From Calothrix sp. MO_192.B10 (GTDB lineage Bacteria; Cyanobacteriota; Cyanobacteriia; Cyanobacteriales; Nostocaceae), in the NCBI GenBank assembly GCA_030065055.1, contig JASJDS010000056.1:1-52908 (forward strand): DNA of 52,908 nucleotides, given 5' to 3'. Below are positions 204-16,713 of this stretch, in pieces; within the stretch, counting starts at the first letter, position 1, and every line of letters begins with the position of its first letter. The notes below the pieces were generated by a model, which was not told the DNA's origin, did not search any database, and saw only the letters and a program-made list of their open reading frames with translations. The translations under genes and the position numbers were made by a program.

Positions 204-890
204 ATGAGCCAAACCGCCCTCAATTTAATTGCAATCTCTGTCTTTTTGATGACTTTTTCTACCCTATTGGGTCCGTTGATTCATTTATCCCCCATAGTAC
301 CTGCACTTGCTACCTTTACTGTTTTAGGCATCGCCACTGTTGATCGGTTTAGCTGGCAAAATAAAGGCGGCAGACTGATGTTAGATTGGATCGCTAATTT
401 TTCCCCCCAGCACAGAGAAAGGATTATTCACCATGAAGCTGGTCACTTTCTTGTGGCTCATATCTTAGAATTTGAAGTGATAAATTATACGCTGAATGCT
501 TGGGAGGCGCTCAAGCAAAATCAATCTGGACAGGGGGGAGTTACCGTTGACGATCGCCACTGTACTTCTCAATTGGAGGGGGGTAGTTTGAATACCCACA
601 TTTTAGATCGCTACTGTACTATTTGGATGGCAGGTATTGCGGCAGAAAAGCTAGTTTTTAATGATACTGTTGGTGGGCTAGATGATCGGCAGAAGCTATC
701 AGCCATTTTGCAAGGTTTAGGTTTTTCGGAATTGGCTTACGCACAAAAGCAAAGATTCCATGCCCTACAAGCCCAAAACCTGCTCCAAGAGAATTGGTCA
801 GCATATCAAGCCTTAGTAAATGCCATGCGCCAACGTCAATCTGTGTCAGACTGTGTGCGAGCTATTGAGATGTGCCGCTCGCCACAATAG
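204..890 (+). CDS. FtsH-like M41 peptidase domain protein without AAA module
   Basis: The 228-residue product has two N-terminal hydrophobic segments (about 7-24 and 29-46) and then a zinc-peptidase signature HEAGH at residues 77-81, the motif that opens the M41 (FtsH) peptidase domain. Full FtsH is about 600-650 residues with an AAA ATPase between membrane anchor and peptidase; that module is absent, so this is a membrane-anchored M41-like protein rather than FtsH itself. Such stand-alone relatives occur in cyanobacteria, but their role is not established. The third zinc ligand, usually an Asp in the C-terminal half, is not obvious to me; the segment around GGLDDRQ (residues 157-163) is a candidate. 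The gene converges on the diguanylate cyclase gene downstream. Confidence 0.65.
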   Translation: MSQTALNLIAISVFLMTFSTLLGPLIHLSPIVPALATFTVLGIATVDRFSWQNKGGRLMLDWIANFSPQHRERIIHHEAGHFLVAHILEFEVINYTLNAWEALKQNQSGQGGVTVDDRHCTSQLEGGSLNTHILDRYCTIWMAGIAAEKLVFNDTVGGLDDRQKLSAILQGLGFSELAYAQKQRFHALQAQNLLQENWSAYQALVNAMRQRQSVSDCVRAIEMCRSPQ

Positions 891-911
891 GGTTGTCGGC
901 GATCCGCCCAC

Positions 912-929
912 AACCAAAGCTTTTTGGTT
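912..929. terminator. Small hairpin between convergent genes
   Basis: AACCAAA and TTTGGTT pair over 7 bp around a 4-nt GCTT loop, 22 bp after the M41-like stop and 18 bp before the end of the convergent GGDEF gene. It could serve as a weak bidirectional terminator. There is no long U-tract, so the call is tentative. Confidence 0.3.
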
Positions 930-946
930 TAACTCATCTGTTTTGG

Positions 947-1957: not shown

Positions 1958-2728
1958 TGTTTTATTTTTTGCCTTCTTTCAACTGTTTTGGGTATAACCC
2001 TCAATAAAATATTTAGACGCTCCCGATTAACACTGAATGTGTAAAATACGCACGTACTCTTCCTTAGAAGTTATGTATCTACACCCACCAGGGAGCTGTT
2101 TACCCACCAAAAAATGAATTACAAGTCTCTGCATTTGAGTTTTGATCATTTTCCATCACCTCTCAAGAATTAATTTGATTACAGTAGTTACCTATACAAT
2201 TTCTGATACCTAATGTCTGTCCTGACATTATTTATTTAAAACAGTAGAAATACTGAATATTCTGCCTAAGTATAAAAGTATTACTGTAATTTCCAGGGGT
2301 TCTTTTTATGGGATTACTACCGGATTAGCTTGTTCTGAATACAGGATCATATTCACAGGGAAACTCGTTTCACCTTTGGTTCTAGCAAATATTTTGAAGC
2401 TTATCTACACCTTAAAGATTCTATACTCAGTATAATCCGAAATCGGTTTGAATTATTACAATCTTTACATAAAAATAAAGTATTCATATACATATGCGTA
2501 ACATCTATTCACATTTTGGAAAATTTACCCGTCCTAATTTTCCACCCTGACAAATATACTGGGTCAACTAGGGAACAGACAGTATGTTGCAGGTTAATTT
2601 TACTTAGATACTTGCTTTTTTAAAGATGTTTACCGTCTTTAAATTCCAGTGAATTTACTTAAATTAAACCTAGGGGATAAGTTGTATATTAATTAATGGT
2701 TTAGTTCTTAATGATTTTCACTTTACAA
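1958..2728. other. Intergenic region, no gene seen
   Basis: About 770 bp of AT-rich sequence upstream of the diguanylate cyclase gene and downstream of the metal chaperone gene. I see only short reading frames without family resemblance. The one notable structure is an 8-bp inverted repeat, TTTAAAGA at 2619-2626 with TCTTTAAA at 2636-2643. Confidence 0.5.
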
Positions 2729-2923
2729 CTATTCAATGGTGTATCCAGCATTAATTATTGCCTGTTTAATATTTTCCAGCGGTACTGTGGATTCTACGGT
2801 AACAATCTTAGTAGACACATCTACCTCAACCTTAGCGTTAGGTTCTAGGGTCAGGAGGGATTCAGTAATTGTGTCAGCACACCCCTGACAGGCAATATCA
2901 GGAACTTTTAATTTGAAGGTCAT
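2729..2923 (-). CDS. Heavy-metal-associated (HMA) domain protein, copper-chaperone-like
   Basis: The 64-residue protein is a single ferredoxin-like HMA domain of normal length. The metal site is CQGC at residues 12-15 (CxxC) in the first loop, and the beta-strand pattern VEVDVSTKIVTVES (residues 33-46) is typical of Atx1/CopZ. The family binds Cu(I) or a related soft metal and delivers it to P-type ATPases. No such ATPase is in the window, so the partner is unknown. The loop reads ACQGCAD where copper chaperones typically have MxCxxC; the Met is absent, which leaves metal preference open. Confidence 0.85.
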   Translation of the reverse strand: MTFKLKVPDIACQGCADTITESLLTLEPNAKVEVDVSTKIVTVESTVPLENIKQAIINAGYTIE

Positions 2924-3091
2924 AGATTTGCTGTTTGTCCTTATTTTTCGTTAGTCTACCCAGAGCAAAAACTCGGTATCTTTATGGAAAGTGTAATCGC
3001 TTATCTTAGTCCACAAAGGGAATTGTGCCACTATATAAAGCTACACATATTAATTGTGTAAAGTTAATTTCATCATAACTTCACATAAAGG

Positions 3092-3245
3092 AGGTGAAAT
3101 CTGCCTGTAGGATTATAAATCCGGGATAATGCTCATTATCTTCAACTACCTAGCCCTTTCAGGGCGACTGCGCCAACGGGAGAGGTAACAGGGAACTCTT
3201 AACAGGCAACAGTGAAGATTTTTGTCTCAGCTCAGGCACTCACCT
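3092..3245 (+). ncRNA. Candidate structured RNA or leader upstream of alaS
   Basis: Nested complementary segments can enclose about 150 nt: AGGTGA (3092-3097) with TCACCT (3240-3245), and TGCCTGT (3102-3108) with ACAGGCA (3202-3208). Inside lie three short hairpins: GGATT/AATCC (3110-3122), GATAAT/ATTATC (3125-3140) and GCCCT/AGGGC (3153-3165). This looks like a multi-branched RNA, but no known riboswitch signature was recognised, and part of it (3187-3206) belongs to a short dispersed repeat that recurs inverted near 26280. The rest of the 2924-3500 gap holds nothing else except the heptamer array next to alaS. Confidence 0.2.
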
Positions 3246-3466
3246 ATGAGTACAGAAGCTCCATCCACCTGTGCGATGGGATAGTTCACGAGTTATTACC
3301 TATTTTGTGGCACAGATATGCGATTGTACGGCATACTTTTTGTGTAAGGATTCGTAGCTGGTGGTTCATGACCAAAAAATAAACTGGATACAAGCCCCCA
3401 GATTTATCCGTGGAGAGGAAAAATATTTTCCTTATTTCATTAGCCCTTCGATTCATCGATGGGGAA

Positions 3467-3498
3467 ACTGATAACTGATAACTGATAACTGATAACTG
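3467..3498 (+). repeat. Heptamer array (ACTGATA)4 directly before alaS
   Basis: Four perfect ACTGATA units plus ACTG end two bases before the alaS start codon, so they occupy the position where a Shine-Dalgarno sequence would be. This is the STRR class of heptanucleotide repeats common in heterocystous cyanobacteria. Confidence 0.85.
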
Positions 3499-3500
3499 AA

Positions 3501-6146
3501 ATGACCGATTGTCCCCCAAAACTCAGCGGTAACGAAATTCGTCAAAAGTTCCTCGACTTCTATGCCCAACAAGGACACCAAGTTGTCAAGAGTGCGTCCC
3601 TGGTACCAGAAGATCCAACTGTGCTGCTGACCATCGCGGGGATGCTACCATTTAAACCGATCTTTCTGGGACAGCGTACCCCTGATTTCCCTAGGGCGAC
3701 TTCTTCTCAAAAGTGTATCCGTACTAATGATATTGAAAATGTGGGACGGACGAAACGCCATCATACGTTCTTTGAGATGTTGGGTAATTTCAGCTTTGGG
3801 GATTATTTCAAGGAACAGGCTATAGCCTGGGGTTGGGAAATCTCTACGCAATTGTTCGAGTTACCAAAAGAGCACCTAGTTGTCAGTGTTTATCAGGAGG
3901 ATGACGAAGCCTATGCAATTTGGCGTGACAAGATTGGTGTGCCAGAGAAGCGGATTCAGCGCATGGGGGCGGATGATAACTTTTGGGCTTCCGGTGCCAC
4001 TGGTCCTTGTGGTCCCTGTTCGGAAATATACTATGATTTTCACCCAGAATTAGGGGATGACAATATTGATTTAGAAGACGATTCCCGGTTTATCGAGTTC
4101 TACAACTTGGTATTTATGGAATCTAACCGGGATGGGGATGGTAATTTAACTCCCTTAGCCAATAAAAATATTGATACGGGGATGGGTTTGGAGAGAATGG
4201 CGCAAATTCTCCAGCAGGTTCCCAATAATTATGAAACGGATTTAATTTTCCCCATAATTAAAACAGCAGCAGAGATTGGGGGGATTGATTACGCCACCAG
4301 TGATGAGAAAACTAAAGTTTCCCTGAAGGTAATTGGCGATCATATCCGGGCTGTGGTACATATGATAGCCGATCAAATCCGCGCTTCTAATGTGGGGCGG
4401 GGTTATGTATTGCGGCGTTTAATTCGCCGGGTGGTGCGTCATGGTAGATTAATTGGTATTGAAGGAGAGTTTACCACCAAAGTTGCCGAAACTGCTATTA
4501 GTCTAGGTGAATCTGCTTACCCCAATTTGCGTCAACGGGAAAATGCCATTAAAGCAGAGTTGCAACGGGAAGAGTCTCGCTTCCTAAAGACATTGGAACG
4601 GGGTGAGAAAATGCTAGCAGAGATTATCACCCAGTTAAAACAGCAAGGTAAAACAGTTATTAGTGGTGAGTCAGCATTTAAACTCTACGATACCTATGGC
4701 TTCCCCTTAGAATTAACCCAGGAAATCGCTGAGGAACAGAGTTTAACCGTGGATGGCGATGGTTTTGGTGTGGAAATGCAAAAGCAAATCGAACGGGCTA
4801 AATCCGCTCACGAAACCATTGATTTAACGGTACAGGGTTCCCTGGATAAGTTAGCAGAACACATCCACGCGACGGAATTCCTTGGTTATACTCAAGCAAG
4901 TGCATCCGCCCAGGTGGAAGTACTGTTAGTGGATGGTATTTCCCAAGAAGAAGCAGAAGCAGGAACAGAAGTACAAATAGTCCTCAACCAAACCCCATTC
5001 TATGCCGAATCCGGGGGGCAAATTGGGGATAAGGGTTATTTATCCGGTGATGGCTTTGTTGTCACCATTGATGATGTGAAGAAAGAATCTGACTTCTTCG
5101 TTCACTTTGGACGCATTGAACGGGGTACAATCAGGGTAGGAGATACAATCACCGCTCAAATCGATCGCAGTTGTCGTCGTCGCGCCCAAGCAAATCATAC
5201 TGCCACCCATTTATTACAAGCGGCGTTAAAGAAAATTATTGATGATGGCATTTCCCAAGCAGGTTCCTTGGTATCCTTCGACAGATTGCGCTTTGACTTT
5301 AACTGTCCCCGTGGTTTAACTCTAGAGGAACTTACCCAAATAGAAGAATTGGTAAATACTTGGATTGGGGAAGCACACACCGCTAAAATAGAAAGTATGC
5401 CCCTAGAACAAGCTAAAGCCAAAGGTGCGATCGCAATGTTTGGGGAAAAATACGCTGAGGTGGTACGGGTAATTGATTTCCCTGGGGTGTCGATGGAATT
5501 GTGCGGCGGAACCCATGTCAGTAATACTGCGGAGATTGGTGTATTTAAAATTATCTCTGAAGGTGGTATTGCTTCCGGGGTACGGCGGATAGAAGCGGTG
5601 TCTGGTCCGGCAATCCTAGATTATCTCAATGTTCGGGACGTGGTAGTTAAAGATTTGAGCGATAGGTTTAAAGTCAAACCAGAGGAAATACCAGAAAGAA
5701 TTACTACCCTGCAAACAGAGCTGAAAAATAGCCAGAAGGAAATAGAGAGCTTGAAATCCCAGCTGGCGATCGCAAAATCTGATAGTTTAATATCAACGGT
5801 GGAAACTGTGGGTGAGTTTAAGATATTAGTCGCCCAAATGGAAGATGTTGATGCTGCTTCCTTGCAAACCGCAGCGGAAAGGTTACAGCAGAAGATTGGT
5901 AGTGGTGCTGCGGTGGTGTTGGGTTCTATTCCGCAAGCAGGGAAAGTTAGTTTGGTGGCTGCATTTTCCTCAGAGGTGAACAAGAAAGGGTTACAAGCGG
6001 GTAAATTTATCGGTGCTGTTGCTAAGATTTGTGGCGGTGGCGGCGGTGGAAGACCTAATTTAGCCCAAGCTGGGGGAAGGGATGAGAGTAAGTTACCGGA
6101 GGCGTTGGAGAAAGCGCGGGGTGATTTGCAAGCTGGTTTGGGGTGA
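3501..6146 (+). CDS. alaS: Alanyl-tRNA synthetase
   Basis: This 881-residue protein has the full-length domain order of bacterial AlaRS. The class II catalytic core contains the motif around [17 protein letters not shown] (residues 87-103), a tRNA-recognition helical region follows, then the editing domain with zinc ligands in NHTATHLL and CGGTHVSN, and the C-terminal C-Ala domain ends with the glycine-rich [15 protein letters not shown]. It charges tRNA-Ala with alanine and hydrolyses mischarged Ser or Gly. The start is the ATG right after a heptamer repeat array; no Shine-Dalgarno is visible, which is tolerated in cyanobacteria. The gene appears monocistronic and is followed by a strong hairpin. 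Confidence 0.98.
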
Positions 6147-6162
6147 TGTTTATTTCGCGCAT

Positions 6163-6204
6163 TAGACACGAAGTGGCTTCTGTTAAGTAGCCACTTCGTG
6201 TCTA
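6163..6204. terminator. Perfect 16-bp hairpin after alaS (dispersed repeat)
   Basis: TAGACACGAAGTGGCT (6163-6178) and AGCCACTTCGTGTCTA (6189-6204) form a perfect 16-bp stem with a 10-nt loop, 17 bp after the alaS stop. The same arm recurs near 48960, so this is a dispersed palindromic repeat that may also terminate alaS. The following stretch to 6630 has no gene: it contains a polypyrimidine run around 6475-6512 and otherwise nothing I recognise. Confidence 0.6.
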
Positions 6205-6630
6205 CGGTGCAGGGTAGACGCAAAGGCGCAAAGGAAGTTTTTAGGGAGAGTTAGGCGAATGTCTAACCCATCTTTTTGAGGTTATTTGTCGAGATTGCCT
6301 TGACACGATTACAAAAAATAGGGGGAAGTTTGAAAGCCCTCCAGTAGCAAGCAGGAAATTCTTGATTTTCTGCAAGAATCCCCTCGCCTTTAGGATGCTG
6401 CTGGCGAATAGTGGGTATGACCCCTTACTAGGTTAAAAACTAGGGATTATTGGCATAATTTGGACTTGTTTTTTCTACCCCCCACTCCCCCACTCTCCCG
6501 CTCCCCCACTCCAAAGAGGGTGATACCCCTGATTCGCCATTGGTATCCTTTAGGCAGGGGAGTGTCAAATTCCCAATTTTGTATATGAGGGCTATATTTG
6601 GAGCTTTGTAACTGCCTACCGCAAAAAAAT

Positions 6631-6685
6631 GTGTAACCTTGGTCGTTACACTGTGCTACGATGGGTGTAACCCCAAGCGTTACAC
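6631..6685. promoter_or_regulatory. Two operator-like palindromes before higB
   Basis: Two copies of GTGTAAC-N7-GTTACAC lie at 6631-6651 and 6665-6685. Both have perfect 7-bp arms and differ in the 7-bp spacer. Their centres are 34 bp apart, close to three helical turns, and the second ends 14 bp before the higB start. HigA-type antitoxins are helix-turn-helix autorepressors, so these are most simply the HigA or HigBA operators. Confidence 0.75.
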
Positions 6686-6699
6686 TTATAATTTTGCCT

Positions 6700-6978
6700 A
6701 TGATAAGAACATTTAAGCATAAAGAGTTAAAGAAGCTTTTCTATGATGATGATAAAAGTGGTATTAATCCGGATCATATACAAAAACTCTTAGACGTACT
6801 TGACACGCTTGATTCTGCTGTGGATATCAAAGATATGAAATACCCAGGCTCTGGCTTGCATCAACTTCGAGGTTCGAGGCAAGATGAGTGGTCTGTAAAG
6901 GTCTCTGGAAACTGGCGTGTAGTTTTTGTGTTTAAGGATGGAGATGCTTATGATGTGAACTACGAAGATTACCATTAG
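6700..6978 (+). CDS. higB: HigB-type RelE-superfamily mRNA interferase toxin
   Basis: The product is 92 residues from the ATG at 6700, the normal HigB length; an upstream in-frame ATG at 6661 is rejected because it would translate through the second operator palindrome. Family features include the N-terminal IRTFKHKELKKLFY, the central LHQLRGSRQDEWSVKVSGNWRV segment (split across residues 53-75) and the C-terminal VNYEDYH. HigB toxins cut mRNA on the ribosome until bound by HigA. Toxin-first gene order is typical of hig loci. The antitoxin gene follows after 203 bp, unusually far for this pair, with a hairpin in the gap. Confidence 0.9.
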   Translation: MIRTFKHKELKKLFYDDDKSGINPDHIQKLLDVLDTLDSAVDIKDMKYPGSGLHQLRGSRQDEWSVKVSGNWRVVFVFKDGDAYDVNYEDYH

Positions 6979-6995
6979 ATTCTATTTTTAACTTT

Positions 6996-7033
6996 CCGTA
7001 GATTGAGTCAAGCTTCCATGTCTCAATCTGCGG
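6996..7033 (+). terminator. 12-bp hairpin between higB and higA
   Basis: CCGTAGATTGAG (6996-7007) and CTCAATCTGCGG (7022-7033) pair along all 12 positions as RNA, with one G-U pair, around a 14-nt loop. It begins 17 bp after the higB stop. No U-tract follows, so it may be an mRNA-processing or stability element rather than a terminator. Confidence 0.4.
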
Positions 7034-7181
7034 TTTACCAAGAAACATTGCTTGATTAAATTTTCTTAGCTTGATCTTTGGCTTAATGCATTTATGGAAT
7101 TTTTGACTAGGTTTTAGGCGGTGTAAAGGTAACAGCAAGGGTTTCAAAATTAGAGAAACAACAAAGGGGATAAAGATAATA

Positions 7182-7481
7182 ATGATATCGAAAAGAAAAC
7201 CTACACATCCTGGCGGCTTGCTCAAGCGTCAGTACCTTGAGCCTTTAGGTATAACCATTACTGAATTTGCTCAGGCAATTGACGTTTCTCGTAAAACTGT
7301 GTCTGAAATAGTTAATGAGAAATGCTCGATTACCCCTAATATGGCGCTTCGTTTAGCCACCGCTTTTGATACCACTCCGCAATTCTGGCTAAATCTTCAG
7401 CAAAGATATGATTTGTGGGTAGAATCCAACAAATCTTCTGATTGGCAGAAAATACAGCCAATTAATTTGCAAGCTAGTTAG
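7182..7481 (+). CDS. higA: HigA-type XRE-family antitoxin
   Basis: The 99-residue protein begins with the HigA signature HPGGLLKRQYLEPLGI and continues with a helix-turn-helix, TITEFAQAIDVSRKTVSEIVN (split about residues 26-46), then the family-typical ATAFDTTPQFWLNLQQRYDL. It should neutralise HigB and repress the operon through the palindromes upstream of higB. A purine-rich AAAGGGG sequence lies upstream of the ATG. The 203-bp distance from higB raises the chance that higA also has its own promoter, which would keep antitoxin in excess. Confidence 0.92.
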   Translation: MISKRKPTHPGGLLKRQYLEPLGITITEFAQAIDVSRKTVSEIVNEKCSITPNMALRLATAFDTTPQFWLNLQQRYDLWVESNKSSDWQKIQPINLQAS

Positions 7482-7647
7482 GCTGGTAACAAAATTAGAA
7501 TGCAAATAAGGTTATGATTCTATGAAATCATAACCTTGTATTTTGAGTAGCGATCGCATATTAAAAAATAATAGTACAAAAATACTATGTATTCCCAGAA
7601 TAGATTATAATAATATAGTGAATAGTACTTGGAAGGCGGGTCTGAGT

Positions 7648-8238
7648 ATGATTGACTGCCTAGATGTGGCTCGCTACTTTATTGTCAGAGCATACGAGGA
7701 TGGGATAGAAGCTGAAATGACCAACATGAAGGTTCAAAAGCTTCTATATTATGCACAAAGCTTACATTTAGCACTTTACGATGAGCCATTGTTTGATGAA
7801 GAAATTCAAGCATGGCGATATGGTCCAGTGTGCCCTCCTGCTTACAAATTTTACAGTAATTTTGAAGCGAATCAATTACCTATCCCTAATAAAGAAGAAT
7901 CTTTACGAAGCATATCTGATGAAAATAAAGAATTGCTAGAAGAAGTTTGGGGATATTTTGGTGGTTATCATGCTTATCGGCTCAGTGATATGACTCACGG
8001 TGAATTTCCCTGGAAAAAAGCTAGGAAGGGATTACCACCTCAAGCAAGTTCCACTGAACCAATCCAACGTCAAGATATGAAAGCGTTGGGTGAGCAAAAA
8101 CTGGATGTGATGGAACGTGAAAATCCTGCTTATGAACCAGTGATGTCGGAAGTCTTGAATGATGCTTTAAACTCGGAATCTTCAACTCGTGTTGGTAAAG
8201 GAGAAGTGCGTGACTGGCTCAACTCCCTTCTTGATTGA
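7648..8238 (+). CDS. Panacea-domain (DUF4065, SocA-like) antitoxin
   Basis: I place the start at the ATG at 7648, preceded by GGAAGG; upstream TTG codons add a stretch with no family resemblance. The 196-residue product begins CLDVARYFIVRAYEDGIE and has the hallmark MTNMKVQKLLYYAQSLHLAL and AWRYGPVCPPAYKFY segments of the DUF4065/GepA/SocA family, now called Panacea. Published work on this family shows it neutralises many unrelated toxin folds when encoded next to them. Here the C terminus overlaps a RelE/ParE-like gene by 29 bp, so the pair is best read as a toxin-antitoxin operon. It sits right after higBA. Confidence 0.85.
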   Translation: MIDCLDVARYFIVRAYEDGIEAEMTNMKVQKLLYYAQSLHLALYDEPLFDEEIQAWRYGPVCPPAYKFYSNFEANQLPIPNKEESLRSISDENKELLEEVWGYFGGYHAYRLSDMTHGEFPWKKARKGLPPQASSTEPIQRQDMKALGEQKLDVMERENPAYEPVMSEVLNDALNSESSTRVGKGEVRDWLNSLLD

Positions 8239-8584
8239 GGAATCTGATAATTTTAGACGTTCGTTCAAGAAACTTGCCAAGGTTCATGGGAATGATTTTG
8301 TTGAGTTGATTGCTGAAGTACTGGAAAATTTGCTCGAAGAGCAGTATCCCATAAATTCCCGTCAAGAACCTTTACCTAGTAAGATTAATTTACCAGAATG
8401 GACGTTTCACAAGCTGGAATTAAAGGTTGGCAGAGGAGCATCAGGACAAATTCGATTGATGTATTTAGTCAATACCAATGATTGCATCATCAAACTTGTT
8501 TGGATTTACAGTCACGAACAGTTTAGCAAACGTCCTGCGGATAAAGATTTAAAGAGTGTTATTCAGGAAATTTTAGATTTTTAA
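8210..8584 (+). CDS. RelE/ParE-like toxin paired with Panacea antitoxin
   Basis: The frame is open from 8189. I choose GTG at 8210 because GGAG sits six bases upstream; this gives 124 residues and a 29-bp overlap with the antitoxin. The sequence shows FRRSFKKLAKVHG near the N terminus and the pattern FHKLELKVGRGASGQIRLMYLV (split about residues 67-88) followed by IIKLVWIYSHEQF, which fits the RelE/ParE fold (basic helix, then strands with a central Arg, then a short C-terminal strand). The target, ribosome or gyrase, cannot be told from sequence. TTG at 8231 is an alternative start. Confidence 0.65.
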   Translation: MTGSTPFLIEESDNFRRSFKKLAKVHGNDFVELIAEVLENLLEEQYPINSRQEPLPSKINLPEWTFHKLELKVGRGASGQIRLMYLVNTNDCIIKLVWIYSHEQFSKRPADKDLKSVIQEILDF

Positions 8585-9042
8585 CTTTGAGGATTTTTGT
8601 AAATAGACTTAAGCAGATAATTTTAACCCTTATACTAGTACTCCACCACATTAATTCATCAGGCTAGGTAAAAGATCCCCGATTTCTGAATAAATATCCG
8701 CACATGGTAGCAATTCATAGGATAGAAGTCGGGGATCGCTCATACCCGCGACTCATCAAAGAATTCCATAAGGATAAAAGTTTTCATTTAAGTCTCTTAA
8801 CTTTTCGCACTTCATCAAAAAACCTGCATTAATAGTACCAATGGTACCAAAAAATTGATGATTGTTAAGTGAAGTATCACGATTTGTAAATTTATTTATA
8901 TTTGCGATGCACTTCTCTAAAAAATGGGCGTATTATTACTGTACTTTAAAATTCCAGCTTGTTTGATTTTTTCAAATTTTTGGAAAAGACTTTTGTCGAT
9001 TTACATCCTTATCTATAAAAACATGATTAGGGGTTAAAAACC
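8585..9042. other. Intergenic region with a dispersed hairpin repeat
   Basis: No gene is seen. The region carries GATCCCCGATTTCT (8674-8687) opposite AGAAGTCGGGGATC (8724-8737), one of four copies of this palindrome in the window (also at 10802, 34965 and 39285). It also carries ACTAGTACTCCACCACATTAAT at about 8634, whose inverted copy lies at about 35174. The last 150 bp are AT-rich and probably hold the promoter of the peptide gene that follows. Confidence 0.55.
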
Positions 9043-9249
9043 ATGAGCAACATAAAACTTGAAAATCTAGATAATAGTCCAATTGATTTCGATTTAAGTG
9101 AAGAAGACCTTACGAGTATTAAAGGTGGAATGAATTCCCCATTTCAATTAAAATATAAAGAATATTTTGATGATAAGATTATTATTATTAAAATCGAATG
9201 TTATTGCCCTGATGAAGATTGGTTAAAGCCACCATTACTAGAACCATAA
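9043..9249 (+). CDS. Putative double-glycine leader peptide (bacteriocin/RiPP precursor-like)
   Basis: The 68-residue product has LSEEDLTSIKGG at residues 18-29, an exact fit to the LSxxELxxIxGG consensus of leaders cut after Gly-Gly by C39 peptidase-containing ABC transporters (Leu at -12 and -7, Ile at -4, Gly at -2 and -1). The predicted core of 39 residues starts MNSPFQLK, is rich in Ile, Lys and aromatic residues, has a CYC pair at core positions 24-26, and ends LKPPLLEP. AGGGG lies about ten bases before the ATG. No C39 transporter or LanM-type enzyme is adjacent; the next gene, about 700 bp on, encodes a di-iron protein. The function of the core is unknown. Confidence 0.6.
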   Translation: MSNIKLENLDNSPIDFDLSEEDLTSIKGGMNSPFQLKYKEYFDDKIIIIKIECYCPDEDWLKPPLLEP

Positions 9250-9267
9250 GCTGAGTTTATTAAATGT

Positions 9268-9435
9268 AGAGACGTTAATATATAGGAATCCGGTTTGATT
9301 GTTGAATAAAATTAGGTACTTTTAGCCATATTACCAGATGGTGCGTTACGCTGCGCGATAACACACCCTACGTATTTTAAGCGCAAGCGCAGGCTACGCC
9401 AACAAAAATCAAATAGTAATCCTATACAACGTCTC
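9268..9435. repeat. MITE-like element with imperfect inverted ends
   Basis: The left end AGAGACGTT...TATAGGAATCC...TTTGATT (9268-9300) is mirrored at the right end (about 9404-9435) as AATCAAATAGTAATCCTATA then AACGTCTCT. The interior holds a palindrome around GGTGCGTTACGCTGCGCG and ACACACCCTACG. A related right end lies at about 9885-9908 just before the di-iron gene. No transposase is encoded, so it is a non-autonomous repeat. Confidence 0.6.
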
Positions 9436-9667
9436 TGTATAACGTCTCTGTATGATGAAAATATTATCTTCATACATATAGTGTTTTTCGGTTGAGTTAG
9501 ATACACAATCAAACCTCAACCGGGCTAAAGCCACCCCTCTCCTTAGTAAGAAGAGGGGAAGGGAGTGAGGTAAGAGTCTGTATTGCATCCAAGTGAAAAC
9601 CGCTATATATGCTTAACGCCAAACTGAACTAAGTGGCAAAGTCTTTTATTGGTGTTTAATAACTATC

Positions 9668-9931
9668 ATATTAAAACAATTTTTACAGCCAGTATCTGTA
9701 GGGTGTGTTATGACGCTAGTCTTTAGCGAAGCCATGCCCGTAGACGCGCAGCGGCTTGCCGCAGGCTAGGGCTATACGCACCGAAACCCTTATAGAATGG
9801 TGCGTTGCGCTTCGCGACAACACAACGCCAGTCGCCTTATGTCGGGAAACCCGCCAACAGCGCTGGCTCCCCTACGTATATTTCAAAAATCAATTAGGAT
9901 TCCTATATTAAAACAATTTTTACAGCCAGTA
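9668..9931 (+). repeat. 27-bp direct repeats around a 210-bp palindromic insertion
   Basis: An identical 27-bp sequence beginning ATATTAAAACAATTTTTAC and ending CAGCCAGTA occurs at 9668-9694 and 9905-9931. The 210 bp between them consist of GC-rich dispersed palindromes (GTAGGGTGTGTTAT..., GGTGCGTTGCGCTTCGCG...). The second copy ends 14 bp before the di-iron gene start, so the leader of that gene was duplicated or interrupted. The remainder of 9250-9945 holds the MITE-like element and no gene. Confidence 0.75.
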
Positions 9932-9945
9932 AGGAAGAAAAAATA

Positions 9946-10761
9946 ATGAATAATGTGAGTGAATTGGCAATTAGTTATCTTCAACGTTATGGCTGTCAAA
10001 TTGATGAAGACTATAAAACTTTTTTAAGAGAGGCTTGTAAGATTCATCCACCGCCACATGGCATGGCATGGTATGGTAATTTTTATCGTCAGCGTGCCCG
10101 TGAAGCTGAATGGTTTGCTAACTCCCTGATTGCGAATGCTGCTGAAGAAGGAAATGGTTCTAGGAAAGTTTGGCAATTCTCGCAGTGCATCTCGGAGCCG
10201 GAATATGCAGAGTTAGTTCGCAAACACTCCATTGATGAATCTCGCCACTCAAAAATGTTTGTTGCCTTAGTGAATATATTGTTTCCTACCCAATTAGAAG
10301 CAGATTTTCGGGTACAGTTGCAAGGCTTGTCACCAGAGTACTATCATCATAAACATCCTACAACAGAACCGCCACTGGTGAGCGATCGCTCCTTGGATAA
10401 CTCTTCTTCTGGGCATCTCATCCTAGACACAGAAAAGGTTATGGATGAGATTATCAAAATTAATTTACTAGAAATTCGGGCATTAATTCTGCAACTTTTA
10501 CTGCGTCCGGTATTACAAGCCTATGCCACACCTGAAAATTTGGCAAAGGTGACGACTATGTCTGATGTATTCATTTATGATGAAACCAAGCATATAGACT
10601 ATTCTGCTTATTGTATTGGCAAGTACATTCAGCAAGGTAATCAAGAATGGGTGCGGGGAATGATTATTTCCCGTCAACAAAGTATCAATGAAATGTTCCT
10701 CACAGATGTAGAGTTGGAAAATTCTGTTGGTACAACTGTTTTGAGTACGCCAAATACATAG
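9946..10761 (+). CDS. Ferritin-like di-iron carboxylate protein
   Basis: The 271-residue protein shows the four-helix di-iron ligand pattern: Glu in AREAEWF (53 or 55), ExxH in DESRH (Glu98, His101), Glu176 in NLLEIRAL, and ExxH in DETKH (Glu213, His216). This is the E, ExxH, E, ExxH arrangement of ferritin-like oxidases and oxygenases. A loop insertion of about 35 residues (134-168) separates the two halves. The substrate is unknown. The context, a Gly-Gly leader peptide upstream and a subtilisin downstream, would suit a tailoring oxidase for a peptide, but that is inference. GGAAGAAAAA lies just upstream of the ATG. Confidence 0.7.
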   Translation: MNNVSELAISYLQRYGCQIDEDYKTFLREACKIHPPPHGMAWYGNFYRQRAREAEWFANSLIANAAEEGNGSRKVWQFSQCISEPEYAELVRKHSIDESRHSKMFVALVNILFPTQLEADFRVQLQGLSPEYYHHKHPTTEPPLVSDRSLDNSSSGHLILDTEKVMDEIIKINLLEIRALILQLLLRPVLQAYATPENLAKVTTMSDVFIYDETKHIDYSAYCIGKYIQQGNQEWVRGMIISRQQSINEMFLTDVELENSVGTTVLSTPNT

Positions 10762-10801
10762 TAAATTTTTGGCATTAATTTTGACGAGTCGCAGGTGTTT
10801 A

Positions 10802-10832
10802 GATCCCCAACTTCTTAAAGAAGTCGGGGATC
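10802..10832 (+). terminator. Strong hairpin after the di-iron gene (dispersed repeat)
   Basis: GATCCCCAACTTCTT (10802-10816) and AAGAAGTCGGGGATC (10818-10832) form a near-perfect stem. It is a compact copy of the GATCCCC...GGGGATC palindrome also found at 8674, 34965 and 39285. It could separate the di-iron gene from the protease gene transcriptionally. Confidence 0.55.
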
Positions 10833-10937
10833 TGTCCGCCTAGGGGTAATGGTTGAATTTTTATCTGTAATTGCTACAATTGAGACTGTAATTATACTTA
10901 AGTACTCAAACTTAATGTTTTCAAATACAGGTATTAC

Positions 10938-12737
10938 ATGAAACTACAATTTGAATCAACAGATATATTTACTGATATTGATCCTGGACTGCAAAGAATA
11001 CTGGAACGGAAAAGTTTGGGAATAACTACTCCCGCAACCGCTTCAACTGAGGAGGGAGAGATTGCAGTTATTGCCAAAGTGAATAATATTGAGGAATGGT
11101 TGGCGATGAACGAAGTATACCCAGGTGCAGATATGGGTAGTACGCCCACTGGTGAGCGAATTGTCACAGCCAGAGTGCCAGTTGCCAGATTAGAGCAAAT
11201 AAAGCAGTCGCCATGGGTTGTCAGCTTAAAGTCAGCGCAACCACTCCAACCGACACTCAGCCATACCCTAGAAGAAATGAGTGTTAGTGAAAATCTTTTA
11301 CCTGAAAATATTCCTGGAAGTCAGGGAGATGGTGTGGTAATTGGTATTATTGATGGTGGTTGTGATTTTGCCCACAAAAATTTTCGTTATCCTGATGGTT
11401 CTACAAGGTTGCTGGCTTTCTGGAACCAGGATGGTAGCCCCAGTCATCACAGCCCCTATGATTATGGCAAAGAATACAAGCAGGATGAGATTAATCAAGC
11501 TCTCCAAGCCAGCGATCCCTATGCGGCTCTCGGATATAAACCAGTACACAAGGCTCACGGAACCCATGTGATGGATATTGCTGCTGGTAATGGACAAGGT
11601 AGCGGTATCCCTGGTGTAGCTCCCGCAGCAGATATTGTATTTGTCCACCTCTCTGAGACTGAAATAGTTTCATCTTTAGAGGACGGTGAAAGAGCTGTGC
11701 AGGAGTCCTTTGGTGATACAGTTGCACTGCTGGAAGCAATGGCGTATATCTTTGATATTGCTGGCGATCGCCCCTGTGTAGTTAATATTAGTTTGGGGCT
11801 ATATGGTGGTCCCCATGATGGTACAACTTTAATTGAACAAAGTATTGATGCTCTAGTAACCGCAAAGCCTAACCGAGCCATAGTCATCGCTGCTGGTAAC
11901 GAATATGATTCAGGGATTCATGCTTCTGGAACTGTGCCACAGGGTAGTTACTTTGACTTAAAGTGGAAAATCCCCCATAAACATCCGAAACAGACAGAAA
12001 TTGAGATATGGTACAGTAAAGATGACCAATTTCAGCTAGAAATCCTCTCTCCAGATGGGAGCAGTCTTGGTGTAATCAATCTGGGAAGTAATGGCAAAGT
12101 GGTAGACAGTGAGAATGAAAGTTTAATGTTCTTTGCCCACCGCCAAGGCGATCCTAACAATGGAGATAATGTAATTTGTATCTTCATGGAACCTGATTTA
12201 CCAGAGGGAGGGGGTGTCTGGAAACTGCGCCTCCACGGAGTGAAAGTAAATAATGGCAAGTTCCACGCTTGGATTGAGCGCGATACAATACAAACCACTT
12301 TCCTTCCTCCCCACCACAAGACTTACACCCTCAATACCATTGCTTGTGGGTATAAGAGCATTGTGGTTGGCTCCTATGATGCGAAAAAACGGAATAAGCC
12401 ATTATCTTATTTTACCAGTTCTGGCCCCACCAGAGATGGGCGGCAAAAACCAGATTTCATAGCTCCTGGCCATCACGTTCGAGCCGCAAACTCCCTTACG
12501 GGTACTGGAATCATCCGTAAGTCTGGTACAAGCATGGCTGCACCTGCGGTAACAGGAGTGATTGCATTAATGCTTGCCGAAGCCTGTGCCCGTAACTTGC
12601 AACTCACTATTGACCAAATTCATGATATCCTGGCAGCTAGTACCAAGGAGAATTTTCCCCAGCCTAGGGAGCAGGAACGCTATGGCTATGGGGCAATTGA
12701 TGCTTTTGCAGCTATCTCGCGAATTCGACAATCGTGA
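10938..12737 (+). CDS. Subtilisin-like serine protease (S8) with N-terminal prodomain
   Basis: The 599-residue protein carries an intact catalytic triad: Asp139 in IIDGGCDF, His207 in HGTHV and Ser532 in GTSMAAP. Residues 38-105 (VIAKV...TARVPVARLEQIKQ..VVSL) look like an inhibitor-I9-type prodomain ahead of the catalytic domain. An insertion of about 150 residues between the His and Ser parts (roughly 330-480) resembles a beta-rich accessory domain. There is no signal peptide, so the protein acts in the cytoplasm or leaves by another route. The next gene encodes a small protein similar to this prodomain. Such proteases mature peptides in some cyanobacterial clusters; its substrate here is unknown. 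Confidence 0.92.
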   Translation: MKLQFESTDIFTDIDPGLQRILERKSLGITTPATASTEEGEIAVIAKVNNIEEWLAMNEVYPGADMGSTPTGERIVTARVPVARLEQIKQSPWVVSLKSAQPLQPTLSHTLEEMSVSENLLPENIPGSQGDGVVIGIIDGGCDFAHKNFRYPDGSTRLLAFWNQDGSPSHHSPYDYGKEYKQDEINQALQASDPYAALGYKPVHKAHGTHVMDIAAGNGQGSGIPGVAPAADIVFVHLSETEIVSSLEDGERAVQESFGDTVALLEAMAYIFDIAGDRPCVVNISLGLYGGPHDGTTLIEQSIDALVTAKPNRAIVIAAGNEYDSGIHASGTVPQGSYFDLKWKIPHKHPKQTEIEIWYSKDDQFQLEILSPDGSSLGVINLGSNGKVVDSENESLMFFAHRQGDPNNGDNVICIFMEPDLPEGGGVWKLRLHGVKVNNGKFHAWIERDTIQTTFLPPHHKTYTLNTIACGYKSIVVGSYDAKKRNKPLSYFTSSGPTRDGRQKPDFIAPGHHVRAANSLTGTGIIRKSGTSMAAPAVTGVIALMLAEACARNLQLTIDQIHDILAASTKENFPQPREQERYGYGAIDAFAAISRIRQS

Positions 12738-12788
12738 TATGATGAATGTAGACTTAATTGTATTATTATAGCTCATGTAAGGAAAATA

Positions 12789-13109
12789 ATGCGATCGCAA
12801 AGCATTAGTCTGAAAAAAATTATGAAACACACAACCTTAACTCTAGTGGAAAATCGAGGTCGTGGATTCAATAAAATAGAATCAAACTCGATGGATTTGT
12901 CACAGTGTAGACAAGGTGGCGACAGTCCAATGGCAGTCACAATCAAAGTGTCTGAAGCTGGTTATGTACCCAGTTTTATTAATGTTCGCACCAAAATTTC
13001 ACCTAATCTTTTTACAGCAAAGGTTACAGCAAAAGATTTGTACTTACTGGAAAAGGATACAAAGGTTGTATCTTTCGGTACCCCCAAGCATTTGCATCAA
13101 GCAAGCTAA
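12789..13109 (+). CDS. Stand-alone protease prodomain-like small protein
   Basis: The 106-residue product starts at the ATG at 12789, with AAGGA five bases upstream and 51 bp after the S8 stop, so co-transcription is likely. Residues 47-104 (AVTIKV...FTAKVTAKDLYLLEKDTKVVSF) follow the same pattern as residues 41-105 of the neighbouring protease (VIAKV...VTARVPVARLEQIKQSPWVVS), which is its predicted prodomain. By analogy with I9-type inhibitors it may fold or inhibit the protease in trans. The N-terminal 45 residues have no recognisable motif and are enriched in polar residues. Confidence 0.6.
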   Translation: MRSQSISLKKIMKHTTLTLVENRGRGFNKIESNSMDLSQCRQGGDSPMAVTIKVSEAGYVPSFINVRTKISPNLFTAKVTAKDLYLLEKDTKVVSFGTPKHLHQAS

Positions 13110-13340
13110 TTTCTCATTGTTTAGACAATTGTGTCTAGCTGGGTTATTGAGTAGCCCAAAAAGCTATGTCAAATTTAAATATTTTACCGAACGGAAGAAA
13201 CACAAAGTTAATTTGGTGAGGATGGGTATATTACCTATCCTCATTTATTTTGATTGGTGATAAAATCTCACCCGCCTAGGTTACCCTCTCCTGATTAAGG
13301 CTACCGCGTACACACATTTCTCCAATTCATGAAATCATCA

Positions 13341-13420
13341 CCTCACCCTCGCTTTTTGCGATGCAAAAATCTTTCCCTCTCCTTGTTAAGGAGAGGGATG
13401 TCCGTTAGGACAGGGTGAGG
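13341..13420. repeat. 80-bp dispersed repeat with CCTCACCCT ends
   Basis: CCTCACCCT (13341-13349) and AGGGTGAGG (13412-13420) form the ends; CCCTCTCCTT/AAGGAGAGGG pair inside. A second copy lies at 34871-34951 with the same architecture. No coding capacity. It sits in the 13110-13805 gap, which has no gene. Confidence 0.75.
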
Positions 13421-13555
13421 TTTGCCTTCTTACTATTGGGAATTCCATAACTTGTGTATACACCGTAGCCTTATTAAGGAGAGGGTAAAAGTTAAGAAGA
13501 ATGGTAGGTTGGGTTGAGGTACGAAACCCAACAAACCTTTGATAACGTTGGGTTA

Positions 13556-13731
13556 CATTGCTGAATCAAGATATGAATTTGTCTCACGCAGAGAGTAAGA
13601 GTTTTAATTACTTCGTATTGGGCGTTGCTGATCGAAAGTATGAATTAGCCTCACGCAAAGGCGCAAAGACGCAAAGAATTGTTGTTTATTCATACCCAAA
13701 ATGTAAATTCATACTCCAATTCAGCAACGCC
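13556..13731. repeat. Inverted-repeat element GGCGTTGCTGA...AGTATGAATT
   Basis: GGCGTTGCTGA-N5-AGTATGAATT at 13621-13646 is repeated inverted at 13706-13731. A degenerate direct copy, TTGCTGAATCAAGATATGAATT, precedes it at about 13558. Each is followed by CTCACGCA(G/A)AG-like sequence. This is a non-autonomous element of a type widespread in Nostocales intergenic DNA. Confidence 0.65.
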
Positions 13732-13805
13732 TCATATTGTCCTTGGTTAGCACAGACGTATATATTTAAAGCACCAACCCCAAGGACACCTAGATATTCA
13801 TAGTT

Positions 13806-14918
13806 TTGAATAACCTCATTGACATAGCCAACCAATTTAAACCAAAGGATGCCACTCAAGGAGCAGTCGCTAACATCCAGGAGTTTGGACATGGTAATAT
13901 TAATCATACCTTCCTCGTGACTCTGGATAACTCCACTGTCAAGCACTTTATCCTCCAACGCATCAATACCCAGGTTTTCCGTCAACCGGAACTGGTGATG
14001 CAGAATATGAGTATCTTTACCAACCACGTTGCCCAGCGCTTACATCATTTTCCCCTACCTGAGGTCAGACGGTGGGAAGTACCGCGAGTACTCCTAACTC
14101 AAAATGATCAAAACCATTTTATCGACAGTGATGGCTCATTTTGGCGAGCGATCGCATTTATTGAAGGGGCACAAACCTTTGATACAATTCAAAATGATAA
14201 CCATGCCCGTGAAGTTGGTTATGCCTTGGGTATGTTCCATAACTTAATTAGTGATTTGCCCGTAGAGCAACTGGCTGATACCCTTCCTGGCTTCCACATT
14301 ACACCAACCTACCTCCAGCAGTATGCCGATATCAAAGCAAGATATACCATACCTACAAAGTCCCCAGAATTAGATTATTGCTTAAAATTTGTCCGCGATC
14401 GCACAACCTGGGCACATATCCTAGAAAATGCTGTCAAAAAGGGATATCTGCATTTGCGTCCCATCCACGGCGATCCGAAAATTAATAATGTGATGATAGA
14501 CACCGCTACAGGACAAGGTATCAGTATTATTGACTTAGACACTGTAAAACCAGGATTGATTCATTACGATATTGGTGACTGCTTGCGTTCTAGCTGCAAT
14601 CCCATGGGAGAAGAAACCCAAAGATGGGAACAAGTTAGTTTTAATACTAGTATTTGTCAATTAGTCTTAGGGGGATATCTCTCAGTAGCTAGAGATTTTC
14701 TCACAGAGAGGGACTATGAATATATATACGAAGCTATCCGCCTGATTGCCTTTGAATTAGGATTACGATTTTTTAGCGATTATTTAGCAGGTAACATCTA
14801 TTTTAAAGTTAAATATCCCGAACATAATCTAGCTAGGGCATTGGTGCAATTTAAACTGACTGAAAGTATTGAATCTCAGGAGGTGAGCATTCGTACCATG
14901 ATTGAGAAAATGCGATGA
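13806..14918 (+). CDS. APH-fold kinase, N-acetylhexosamine-kinase-like
   Basis: The 370-residue protein has the aminoglycoside-phosphotransferase fold signature: catalytic HGDPKINN at 221-228 with Asp223 as base, and the magnesium-binding IIDLDTV at 241-247. The N terminus (FGHGNINHTFLV) is the nucleotide loop typical of homoserine kinase II and N-acetylhexosamine 1-kinase relatives, and overall length matches the latter. It likely phosphorylates a sugar or small alcohol; the substrate is not determined. The start is TTG at 13806, the first codon that preserves the conserved N terminus. Its stop overlaps the next start as ATGA, so the two genes form an operon. Confidence 0.75.
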   Translation: MNNLIDIANQFKPKDATQGAVANIQEFGHGNINHTFLVTLDNSTVKHFILQRINTQVFRQPELVMQNMSIFTNHVAQRLHHFPLPEVRRWEVPRVLLTQNDQNHFIDSDGSFWRAIAFIEGAQTFDTIQNDNHAREVGYALGMFHNLISDLPVEQLADTLPGFHITPTYLQQYADIKARYTIPTKSPELDYCLKFVRDRTTWAHILENAVKKGYLHLRPIHGDPKINNVMIDTATGQGISIIDLDTVKPGLIHYDIGDCLRSSCNPMGEETQRWEQVSFNTSICQLVLGGYLSVARDFLTERDYEYIYEAIRLIAFELGLRFFSDYLAGNIYFKVKYPEHNLARALVQFKLTESIESQEVSIRTMIEKMR

Positions 14919-15463
14919 ATCAACAACAATTCAGTTTACAACCATTTACACCCATTCCCCACCTAGATTTACAGATTTATGGCAAAATTGCCCGCAACCA
15001 TAATACCCTAGGGATTAACTATATATTTCAAGGTGACTTAGAAAAAATAGATATTCCTACCCCAGCAGACATACCAACTCGCCAACATGAATTATGGCAA
15101 GCAACTTGTTTTGAGTTCTTCCTCGGAATTAAGCATAGTCCCCGTTATTGGGAATTTAACCTTTCCCCCACAGGAGATTGGAATATCTATCATTTTGATG
15201 ATTATCGCCAAGGAATGCAGGAGGAAACAGCTATTCCCTCACTTCCATTTACTCTTCACCGTCAACCCGAAACTTTGCAACTAACTTTACAACTAGATTT
15301 GCATAAATTCATCGCCCCAGAAATGAATTTAGATGTTGGTATTACTACCGTAGTTAAAGATGTAAATGGTGTTATTACTTATTGGGCATTAAAGCATAGT
15401 GGGGCAGAGGCTGATTTTCACCTGCGGGATAGTTTTACCATCGATTTGATGGGAATAAGTTAA
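14915..15463 (+). CDS. DOMON-like domain protein
   Basis: The 182-residue product matches the cyanobacterial DOMON-like family: a beta-sandwich pattern with ELWQATCFEFFLG (residues 58-70), YWEFNLSPTGDWNIYHFDDYR (split about residues 76-96) and the ending YWALKHSGAEADFHLRDSF (158-176). Such folds bind haem or sugars in other proteins, but no ligand has been assigned to this family as far as I know. The 4-bp ATGA overlap with the upstream sugar-kinase-like gene suggests translational coupling and a shared pathway. Confidence 0.75.
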   Translation: MNQQQFSLQPFTPIPHLDLQIYGKIARNHNTLGINYIFQGDLEKIDIPTPADIPTRQHELWQATCFEFFLGIKHSPRYWEFNLSPTGDWNIYHFDDYRQGMQEETAIPSLPFTLHRQPETLQLTLQLDLHKFIAPEMNLDVGITTVVKDVNGVITYWALKHSGAEADFHLRDSFTIDLMGIS

Positions 15464-15690
15464 TACGCAGCTAAATTGAAGTATGAAATTCAAAAATGGG
15501 ATACTTAAAACTCTTATTCTCTGCGCCTCTGCGCCTCTGCGTGAGATAAATACACTGCGCTACACGAACAGCAAGCCCTAAGTAAAAAGGTAAAAAGCAA
15601 AAGTAGCGGGAAGGGCTTTTAACTTTTACCTTTTACCTTATGTATTTTCCTTGCATTGGATATAGGTTATAAAGGCTACCACACATTCCC

Positions 15691-16713
15691 ATGAGTATCA
15701 AGCGCCGAGAATTGCTGAAAATATTGAGTATATCTGCCGTATCCACTCCCTTACTATCATTTTCTGCCCAAGGGCAGCATTCGCCAAATACCATCATCAA
15801 ACCACCACATTTACGCAGAGGCGATACAGTAGGATTAATTAGTCCTGCGGGTATGGTTGATACTGAGGATGTGGAACAAGCCAAGCAAGCACTAACTAAT
15901 TTAGGCTTAAAAGTTAAGCTAGGCAAACATATTTTAGACCGTTATGGCTATTTAGCGGGTAAAGATATTGACAGAGCAGCAGATGTGAACAATATGTTTG
16001 CTGATAAATCTGTCACAGCCATAATTACCATGCGCGGTGGTTGGGGTTGTAATCGGATTTTACCTTTACTGAAGTATCCTTTGATTCGTTCCCACCCCAA
16101 AATCATTATGGGGTATAGCGATATTACTTCCCTATTATTGGCAATTAATGCCCGTAGCCGCATTGTAACCTTTCATGGTCCTGTGGGGATTTCTAGTTGG
16201 AATCAATTTACTTTAGACTATCTCCAACCAATGCTTTTTCAAGGGAAAATGCTCACCATGAGAAATCCCCTGACAACAGAAGTTCGTCGGCGAATAATTC
16301 ACCCAGGAACAGCAACGGGTAAGTTAGTGGGTGGTAATTTATCCGTATTATGTGCCATGTTAGGTTCACCTTATCTACCATCTTGGAATCGCCGTATTTT
16401 GTTTGTGGAAGACATTGGCGAGGATATTTACCGTATAGATAGAATGCTTACCCAATTAAAAAATGCTGGTATTCTGACTCGATTGTCAGGCTTTATTTTT
16501 GGAAAATGTACTAGGTGCAGTACGGGAGATGATCCTTCCTTAACATTAATGGAAGTATTGAAAGACCATATTAAACCTTTAGGAATTCCCGCTTGGTATG
16601 CATCTATGATTGGTCATATTCGGGATAAATTTACCATGCCTATTGGTGTGGATGTTGAGATTGATGCAGAAAAAGGGACAATACGAATGTTAGAACCAGC
16701 AGTCAACCGCTGA
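15691..16713 (+). CDS. LD-carboxypeptidase, peptidase family S66
   Basis: The 340-residue protein begins with a twin-arginine-like signal (KRRELLKILSISAVSTPLLS, residues 4-23), which would place it in the periplasm, unusual for the mainly cytoplasmic LdcA. The catalytic core is clear: GDTVGLISPAG at 44-54, the nucleophile Ser143 in MGYSDITSL, the glutamate region FVEDIGEDIYRIDRML, and the His in MIGHIRDKF. The enzyme removes the terminal D-Ala from tetrapeptide muropeptides in wall recycling. It is followed immediately by an unrelated nuclease-like gene on the same strand. Confidence 0.93.
   Translation: MSIKRRELLKILSISAVSTPLLSFSAQGQHSPNTIIKPPHLRRGDTVGLISPAGMVDTEDVEQAKQALTNLGLKVKLGKHILDRYGYLAGKDIDRAADVNNMFADKSVTAIITMRGGWGCNRILPLLKYPLIRSHPKIIMGYSDITSLLLAINARSRIVTFHGPVGISSWNQFTLDYLQPMLFQGKMLTMRNPLTTEVRRRIIHPGTATGKLVGGNLSVLCAMLGSPYLPSWNRRILFVEDIGEDIYRIDRMLTQLKNAGILTRLSGFIFGKCTRCSTGDDPSLTLMEVLKDHIKPLGIPAWYASMIGHIRDKFTMPIGVDVEIDAEKGTIRMLEPAVNR

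Follow-up and report, generated by a model that had tools for sequence, protein, structure and literature searches.

A candidate minimal RiPP-type locus in Calothrix sp. MO_192.B10: a double-glycine peptide gene paired with a ferritin-like di-iron protein gene, beside a separate subtilase module

Introduction

The classes of ribosomally synthesised and post-translationally modified peptides (RiPPs), whose gene-encoded precursors consist of a leader and a core, are defined by the enzymes that modify them. Ferritin-like di-iron oxygenases (FDOs), with ligand sets that reach from four carboxylates and two histidines, have been set apart from the heme-oxygenase-like enzymes in a review (PMC13108848). 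This work covers contig JASJDS010000056.1 of the cyanobacterium Calothrix sp. MO_192.B10 (assembly GCA_030065055.1), analysed over its whole length of 52,908 nt and called here the window. It contains four consecutive genes for a peptide with a double-glycine (GG) leader, a ferritin-like di-iron protein, an S8 subtilase and a small protein. The home genome (G000) is a draft of 7.76 Mb in 330 contigs.

The four open reading frames (ORFs) on which the original prediction was based are all present on the + strand and their coordinates agree (Table 1). They are two independent, adjacent two-gene modules: the peptide and di-iron genes (module 1) and the S8 and small-protein genes (module 2). Module 1 is probably (with a probability of about 0.7) a minimal RiPP-type locus, in which a ferritin-like di-iron oxygenase would modify the core of a GG precursor that would be exported via a C39 transporter.

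Association of the peptide and di-iron genes

The di-iron gene was searched in 291 genomes of the order, seven of which matched; one of them (G270) was set aside, leaving six. The G270 protein (locus L018) was not taken as a family member, its identity being 26% and confined to a part of the sequence; its reading frame resembles, we presume, that of the tRNA hydroxylase MiaE. Homologues were found in Calothrix sp. MO_167.B12 (L009), Nostocaceae MO_167.B47 (L010), Richelia sp. UBA3308 (L011) and Microseira wollei (L012), and in all four a GG peptide lies upstream of the di-iron gene. When a profile was run over 217 family genomes, 16 of them matched, 15 with a full-length gene free of stops and the other one (G620) with a match of 30 positions that contains a stop. 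The surroundings were read for the 14 intact family loci besides that of the window, three of which repeat the genomes of L009-L011.

The window, the loci of the family, Microseira and a Dolichospermum plasmid (L022) together supply 15 intact loci whose upstream DNA exceeds 1 kb. In each of these a GG-type peptide gene, located by pattern, shares the strand of the di-iron gene and precedes it by 35-808 bp. Two further loci with intact di-iron genes (L080 and L081) were left out of this count, their contigs leaving 110 and 222 bp upstream, and two loci (L082 and L083) hold two peptides each. A strict leader pattern served as a control: within 1 kb upstream it was present for 14 of the 15 di-iron genes versus none of 124 other ORFs (non-overlapping, at least 200 aa, same 15 loci), with a P of 2.6e-18 that overstates independence because the loci are related. 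The single miss was the Dolichospermum leader, which ends LNGG.

The association also holds in the reverse direction. A peptide profile run over the 217 family genomes matched in 18. The matches extend into the core (E ≤ 1.1e-18) in 14 genomes, all with an intact di-iron gene; in G732, one of the two genomes with short upstream DNA, the contig breaks near the di-iron gene and the peptides lie on a different contig. The remaining four genomes gave leader-only matches (E 8e-6 to 7e-4), and the stretches of about 3 kb read around these held no di-iron homologue. G731 is the only genome with an intact di-iron gene and no peptide match, and its contig leaves 110 bp upstream. A candidate modifying enzyme is thus linked to the precursor at 15 of 15 testable loci and by reciprocal presence. 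The precursor and oxidising enzyme proposed by the original prediction are therefore strongly upheld as a genetic pair, the oxidation of the peptide itself being putative.

The distance between both genes is 696 bp in the window, 808 bp in L009 and 35-415 bp in 12 other cyanobacterial GG loci. The repeat-filled gap of about 700 bp, raised before as an objection, is real, but it does not refute the pairing, since the shorter gaps elsewhere indicate that its length is lineage-specific.

A 7-row di-iron profile searched through the phylum (386 genomes) matched only the home genome and a short remnant in G042, and a 19-row profile searched through the order matched 7 of 388 genomes, with intact genes in G000, G730 and G091 and broken or short ones in G160, G185, G042 and G084; the di-iron family is consequently patchy. 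No relative was found in two scans of viral contigs or among phage records.

The di-iron protein

All 19 homologues, among them two Rhizobium proteins of 27 and 29% identity, keep the six candidate ligands of the 271-aa protein unchanged. The ligands amount to four Glu and two His, arranged in two E...ExxH halves (E68/E98/H101 and E176/E213/H216) whose paired Glu are separated by 29 and 36 residues, and these halves appear to follow the plan of the ferritin-like di-iron enzymes. A heme-oxygenase-like di-iron oxygenase (HDO), which would have 3H/3C or 3H/4C ligands, was rejected on this argument from sequence.

Matches to known families are weak. The window protein scores 20 bits against Ribonuc_red_sm (PF00268), below the cut-off of 33.6, and this model is sub-threshold in 12 of the 19 members (best E 4.3e-6). 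The AurF profile matches one of the 19 weakly, the comparison of the family profile with solved structures gave a best E of 0.035 (7qbk, an R2-like oxidase), all others being weaker, and nothing relevant came out of an NCBIfam scan of the window protein. As every curated cut-off tested is missed, the protein is said to work like a ferritin-like di-iron oxygenase and is not filed in a named family. The di-iron character predicted for it is argued from the six invariant positions and the sub-threshold Ribonuc_red_sm matches, not from structure. The ratio of non-synonymous to synonymous substitution rates (dN/dS) of its gene is 0.11-0.17 in eight of nine pairs of loci and 0.45 for the very close pair formed by the window and L009.

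The peptide: leader and core

In the alignment of 16 peptides (A6), leaders are conserved and cores are variable, with leader positions L9, I14, F16, L18, E21, I26 and G28 invariant; the peptide thus has the build of a RiPP precursor. The GG-type leader recognised by the original prediction is real beyond chance: it recurs at 15 of 15 loci and its dN/dS against the closest relative is 0.06, a rough value from 29 codons. The dN/dS analysis used nine chosen pairs drawn from 12 of the 14 GG-peptide loci (all except L012 and L079, with L022 outside the set), the nearer peptide being taken at loci with two. Leaders gave 0.06-0.50 over the nine pairs and cores gave 1.93, 2.53, 1.50 and 1.46 in four of them, the core figures being rough because cores are short. 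Such a combination of a conserved leader and a faster-changing core is what a precursor peptide would show.

The cores are rich in Ile (16.6% of the 16 cores versus 7.3% of the enzyme) and Pro (12.6% versus 4.3%), and all 16 contain I-x-I/V. A wider motif, hydrophobic-x-I-x-I/V, occurs 36 times versus 9.1 in shuffles (22 versus 5.8 in a set with one peptide per genus) and is held by 14 of the 16 cores, the pattern having been devised after the cores were seen and with L022 left out of the motif set. In L076 it is seen twice in FPIRIVAIPPKRPFQILIVAIP. Neither the core alignment nor the counts include a second GG ORF of L079 (6072-6284, gap 1716 bp).

Related enzymes and their settings

The enzyme family is also found with peptides of other kinds. 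The Dolichospermum enzyme (59% identical) is encoded after a peptide with a LSPNEMQQLNGG leader and RSSAQL repeats and before a JmjC-domain protein, and a 38% identical gene of G160 (L013), with one in-frame stop, follows a peptide that has a VGG as well as AAFTACN repeats. In three records of Rhizobium plasmids (L023, L024 and L025) a 71-aa peptide directly precedes the enzyme and has a shared end, SPFDPVSQC plus one residue; a search for this peptide gave those three records and two further, weak matches (E 0.06 and 0.4) in other records. The neighbours in two annotated R. leguminosarum records include PEP mutase and phosphonopyruvate decarboxylase, and the plasmid cluster could possibly make a peptide-scaffolded phosphonate. 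Wherever upstream DNA is readable, relatives of the enzyme adjoin a small peptide gene, even of non-GG type (the remnants L016 and L017 are not included).

Alternatively, the peptide could be a carrier or sacrificial scaffold: a residue cut or oxidised by the enzyme would be released as a small molecule, in the manner of the pearlin-type and 3-thiaglutamate pathways. The shared end of the Rhizobium peptide and the phosphonate cluster around the R. leguminosarum copy are in line with such a role, whereas the cyanobacterial cores are variable and repetitive, which a fixed carrier end would not be, and no further gene was seen to be kept beside the pair across lineages. For these reasons we consider a carrier role quite improbable.

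One of the pairs lies within a RiPP island. In L079 (G649) the peptide and di-iron genes sit between a Nif11 precursor with two PLYGVI stretches and the gene of a nif11-class radical SAM maturase 3 (839 bits versus a cut-off of 725), which is followed by an LxmK-like gene (89.6 bits, below the cut-off of 315), a HopA1-family gene and a rotamase gene. The LxmK-like and HopA1 proteins are presumably as in class V lanthipeptides.

This setting bears on another explanation, according to which the peptide would be an unmodified secreted GG peptide (a bacteriocin or an EbfG-like biofilm peptide), with the di-iron protein as a partner in immunity, sensing or stress. GG peptides with extracellular roles are known in cyanobacteria (PMC4997328). 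The explanation is unlikely all the same, given that six positions of catalytic ligand type are invariant in the di-iron protein, that related enzymes are found in biosynthetic settings (beside a JmjC-domain protein in L022 and in the phosphonate cluster of L024) and that the L079 pair lies in the island described above. Besides, we know of no ferritin-like immunity protein.

Other peptides of the home genome were observed in passing. Three tandem Nif11-like peptides with YGV or YGI stretches (L054, G000:C174:2500-4500) resemble, as we take it, spliceotide precursors, and two tandem GG peptides (L053, G000:C261:1-1500) have Tyr-Pro-rich cores, one with PYPKPYPKPYP.

With regard to export, the original prediction had counted the lack of a C39 exporter against itself. 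None is encoded in the window, but the home genome has 13 C39 matches elsewhere, all over the cut-off and two of them weak, and the objection falls away.

Proposed route and its weighing

The 68-aa peptide would be a double-glycine precursor and the 271-aa protein a ferritin-like, O2-using di-iron oxygenase that modifies its core. The recurrent Ile-x-Ile/Val stretch would most likely be oxidised, by hydroxylation, desaturation or cross-linking, after which the leader would be removed and the product exported by a C39 transporter encoded elsewhere in the genome.

Several observations weigh against this route. Five of the nine pairs show no fast evolution of the core (dN/dS 0.17, 0.67, 0.48, 0.52 and 0.50), two of the 16 cores are without the wider motif, and this motif is absent by eye from the Dolichospermum, L013 and Rhizobium peptides, so that no single target motif is common to the whole enzyme family. 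The strict pattern of the control was devised after the leaders had been seen and misses other GG peptides, several of them in L079, and the control therefore speaks for this leader type. Co-transcription across the 696-bp gap of the window is no more than a possibility. An AlphaFold model from a 5-row alignment is all-helical with a mean pLDDT of 39.7, that is, of low confidence, so the fold is argued from motifs and sub-threshold matches. In tblastn searches with 11 of the 13 home C39 proteins no similar transporter appeared in 20 related loci or in the window, the hits being two general ABC ATPase genes in the window only; export in trans is thus what we infer. The copies of genus g52 (L014-L017) are decayed and form a series from stop-bearing copies to short remnants of the peptide/di-iron locus, in which L014 and L015 keep a GG-like leader upstream; the L013 gene, as mentioned, has its in-frame stop. 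Finally, the RiPP assignment is drawn from genes.

On balance, by a narrow preference, these loci would represent a new RiPP class, in which a stand-alone ferritin-like di-iron oxygenase would oxidise Ile-rich, often repeated cores of GG peptides, the same family having been recruited for the differently built peptides of Dolichospermum, G160 and Rhizobium. Among the matches listed from the open-licence literature of PubMed Central, none describes a ferritin-like di-iron enzyme together with a leader-core peptide. Having only two genes and aliphatic cores, such a system would lend itself to expression, and it could reveal how unactivated residues of a ribosomal peptide undergo C-H oxidation. 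Besides, alignments A5 and A6 can be used as profiles for such loci, which the Pfam and NCBIfam models used do not recognise.

The subtilase and its small partner

The third protein is a subtilase of peptidase family S8 (PF00082, E 1.3e-31, 110.5 bits) in which the motifs IIDGG, HGTHV and GTSMAAP are seen by eye. Its best structural match is Csp (4i0w, E 2.1e-34), and its scores are far below the NCBIfam Csp cut-offs; the only PADLOC models found were subtilase and IetS, both on this protein. For the 106-aa small protein neither Pfam nor NCBIfam gives a match at E values up to 1. Its likeness to the prodomain of the protease, proposed before, is weak (hhalign probability of 22% over 34 columns), the hit falling on the prodomain region. 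Compared with L009, dN/dS is 0.11 for the S8 gene and 0.24 for the small gene, so both look constrained.

S8 homologues of G175, G244 and G214 (54-55% identical) are directly followed by a homologue of the small protein of 122-139 aa, and no small-protein match was found at the S8 loci of G268 and G118; the S8/small pair is therefore present in three of the five other S8 loci read. In these three genera (L048-L050) it stands without module 1, and tblastn (E ≤ 0.1) found no GG peptide or di-iron match in the five S8 stretches of 6.7-11 kb. The small partners of L048-L050 have, by eye, a hydrophobic N-terminus which that of the window lacks, and the S8 enzymes of these loci show no obvious signal peptide by eye. 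Upstream of the S8 gene of L052, a 90-aa ORF may be prodomain-like, as judged by eye.

The original prediction had joined the four genes in one self-contained route, with precursor, di-iron enzyme, S8 leader protease and a prodomain-like regulator. Same order and strand are seen in the window and in L009, and S8 proteins define group VI of the cyanobacterial bacteriocin clusters in the part of PMC3140520 consulted. The S8 family (E ≤ 1e-60, a limit that leaves out distant subtilases) is present in 6 of 291 genomes of the order, and the only genome with both this and the di-iron family is the home genome; both searches covered 291 genomes with the same settings, taken as the same set since the listed genomes agree. 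The four genes occur together only in the window and in its close and collinear relative L009, and the four-gene unit is consequently the neighbourhood of one lineage. In addition, neither this GG peptide nor the di-iron gene accompanies the S8 pair in L048-L050, an inverted repeat separates the two pairs, and tblastn detected no S8 gene beside the di-iron gene in L010-L012, L013-L018 or the 13 family loci that remain when L072, the copy of L009, is set apart (L022-L025 are outside this adjacency test).

The four-gene route is thus not supported; it is already largely refuted and hardly tenable. Its peptide/di-iron half came out stronger than claimed, while the protease and its control belong to a separate module of different distribution, and the comparison of neighbourhoods proposed as a check found that the four families rarely co-occur. 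A group VI (S8-type) bacteriocin cluster was rejected as well, since tblastn with 11 home C39 proteins found no long C39 transporter clustered with the S8 gene in the window.

Features of the locus

The hairpin noted before the protease gene is present, but it is one copy of a dispersed inverted repeat, GATCCCCGACTTCTT, of which the window holds 8 half-sites (with up to 2 mismatches) versus 0.52 expected. It was rejected as a terminator special to the locus, and a terminator scan lists none there. Upstream of the peptide (window 7543-8584), a SocA/Panacea antitoxin-like gene overlaps a possible RelE-like toxin gene, whose match is weak (E 0.011, below the cut-off); this arrangement is kept in L009.

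Table 1. Coordinates of the features in the window and in related loci
Feature	Sequence	Position	Strand	Remarks
GG-leader peptide ORF	window	9043-9249	+	68 aa; leader MSNIKLENLDNSPIDFDLSEEDLTSIKGG, core MNSPFQLKYKEYFDDKIIIIKIECYCPDEDWLKPPLLEP
Double-glycine leader	window	9043-9129	+	29 codons; ends DLSEEDLTSIKGG
Core region	window	9130-9246	+	IIIIKIE stretch, related to the hydrophobic-x-I-x-I/V motif
Spacer with repeats	window	9250-9945	+	696 bp
Ferritin-like di-iron protein	window	9946-10761	+	271 aa; candidate ligands E68, E98, H101, E176, E213, H216
Inverted repeat GATCCCCAACTTCTT...AAGAAGTCGGGGATC	window	10802-10832		between the two gene pairs; one of several window copies
S8 subtilase	window	10938-12737	+	599 aa; PF00082; nearest to Csp germination proteases; separate module
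Small protein	window	12789-13109	+	106 aa; partner of the S8 gene; weakly prodomain-like
Dispersed inverted repeat GATCCCCGACTTCTT, copies	window	8674-8737, 10802-10832, 34965-35023, 39285-39342		
Small S8-partner proteins	L048; L049; L050	4786-5154; 4578-4946; 3927-4346		
RiPP island	L079 (G649:C115)	255-15517		dense; several GG peptides around the pair
Rhizobium phosphonate cluster	L024 (NZ_CP090100.1)	5843-15800		di-iron homologue with a nearly fixed-ended 71-aa peptide directly upstream

Comparison with known systems

With the cyanobacterial double-glycine bacteriocin precursors, as far as the part of PMC3140520 consulted describes them, the peptide shares a GG leader of the usual kind and C39 proteins in the genome, and it differs in that no C39 transporter is found in the flanks tested; the terms ferritin, oxygenase and oxidase have no hits in the main text of that paper. 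The S8 protein of module 2 matches the structures of the Csp-type subtilases (CspB/CspC) best, but it is cyanobacterial, stays below the NCBIfam Csp cut-offs and is followed by a separate small protein. The enzymes of family DUF692 are TIM barrels, which differ from the ferritin-type pattern described here.

An iron enzyme acting with a leader-core peptide is also what is described for the RiPP oxidations carried out by MNIO/DUF692 enzymes or HDOs, in the available parts of PMC10214503 and PMC13108848. The HDOs of thioamidated RiPPs are heme-oxygenase-like, with 3H/3C or 3H/4C ligands according to the latter source, in contrast with the ferritin-type pattern of the window protein. With the FDOs (ribonucleotide reductase R2, R2lox and AurF) this protein has in common the two E...ExxH halves, with four carboxylates and two histidines that fall within the range given in the same part of PMC13108848, and the weak profile matches to Ribonuc_red_sm, AurF and the R2-like oxidase. 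It differs from them in its length of 271 aa, in its position below all the curated cut-offs tested and in being encoded beside a small peptide gene wherever the upstream DNA is readable.

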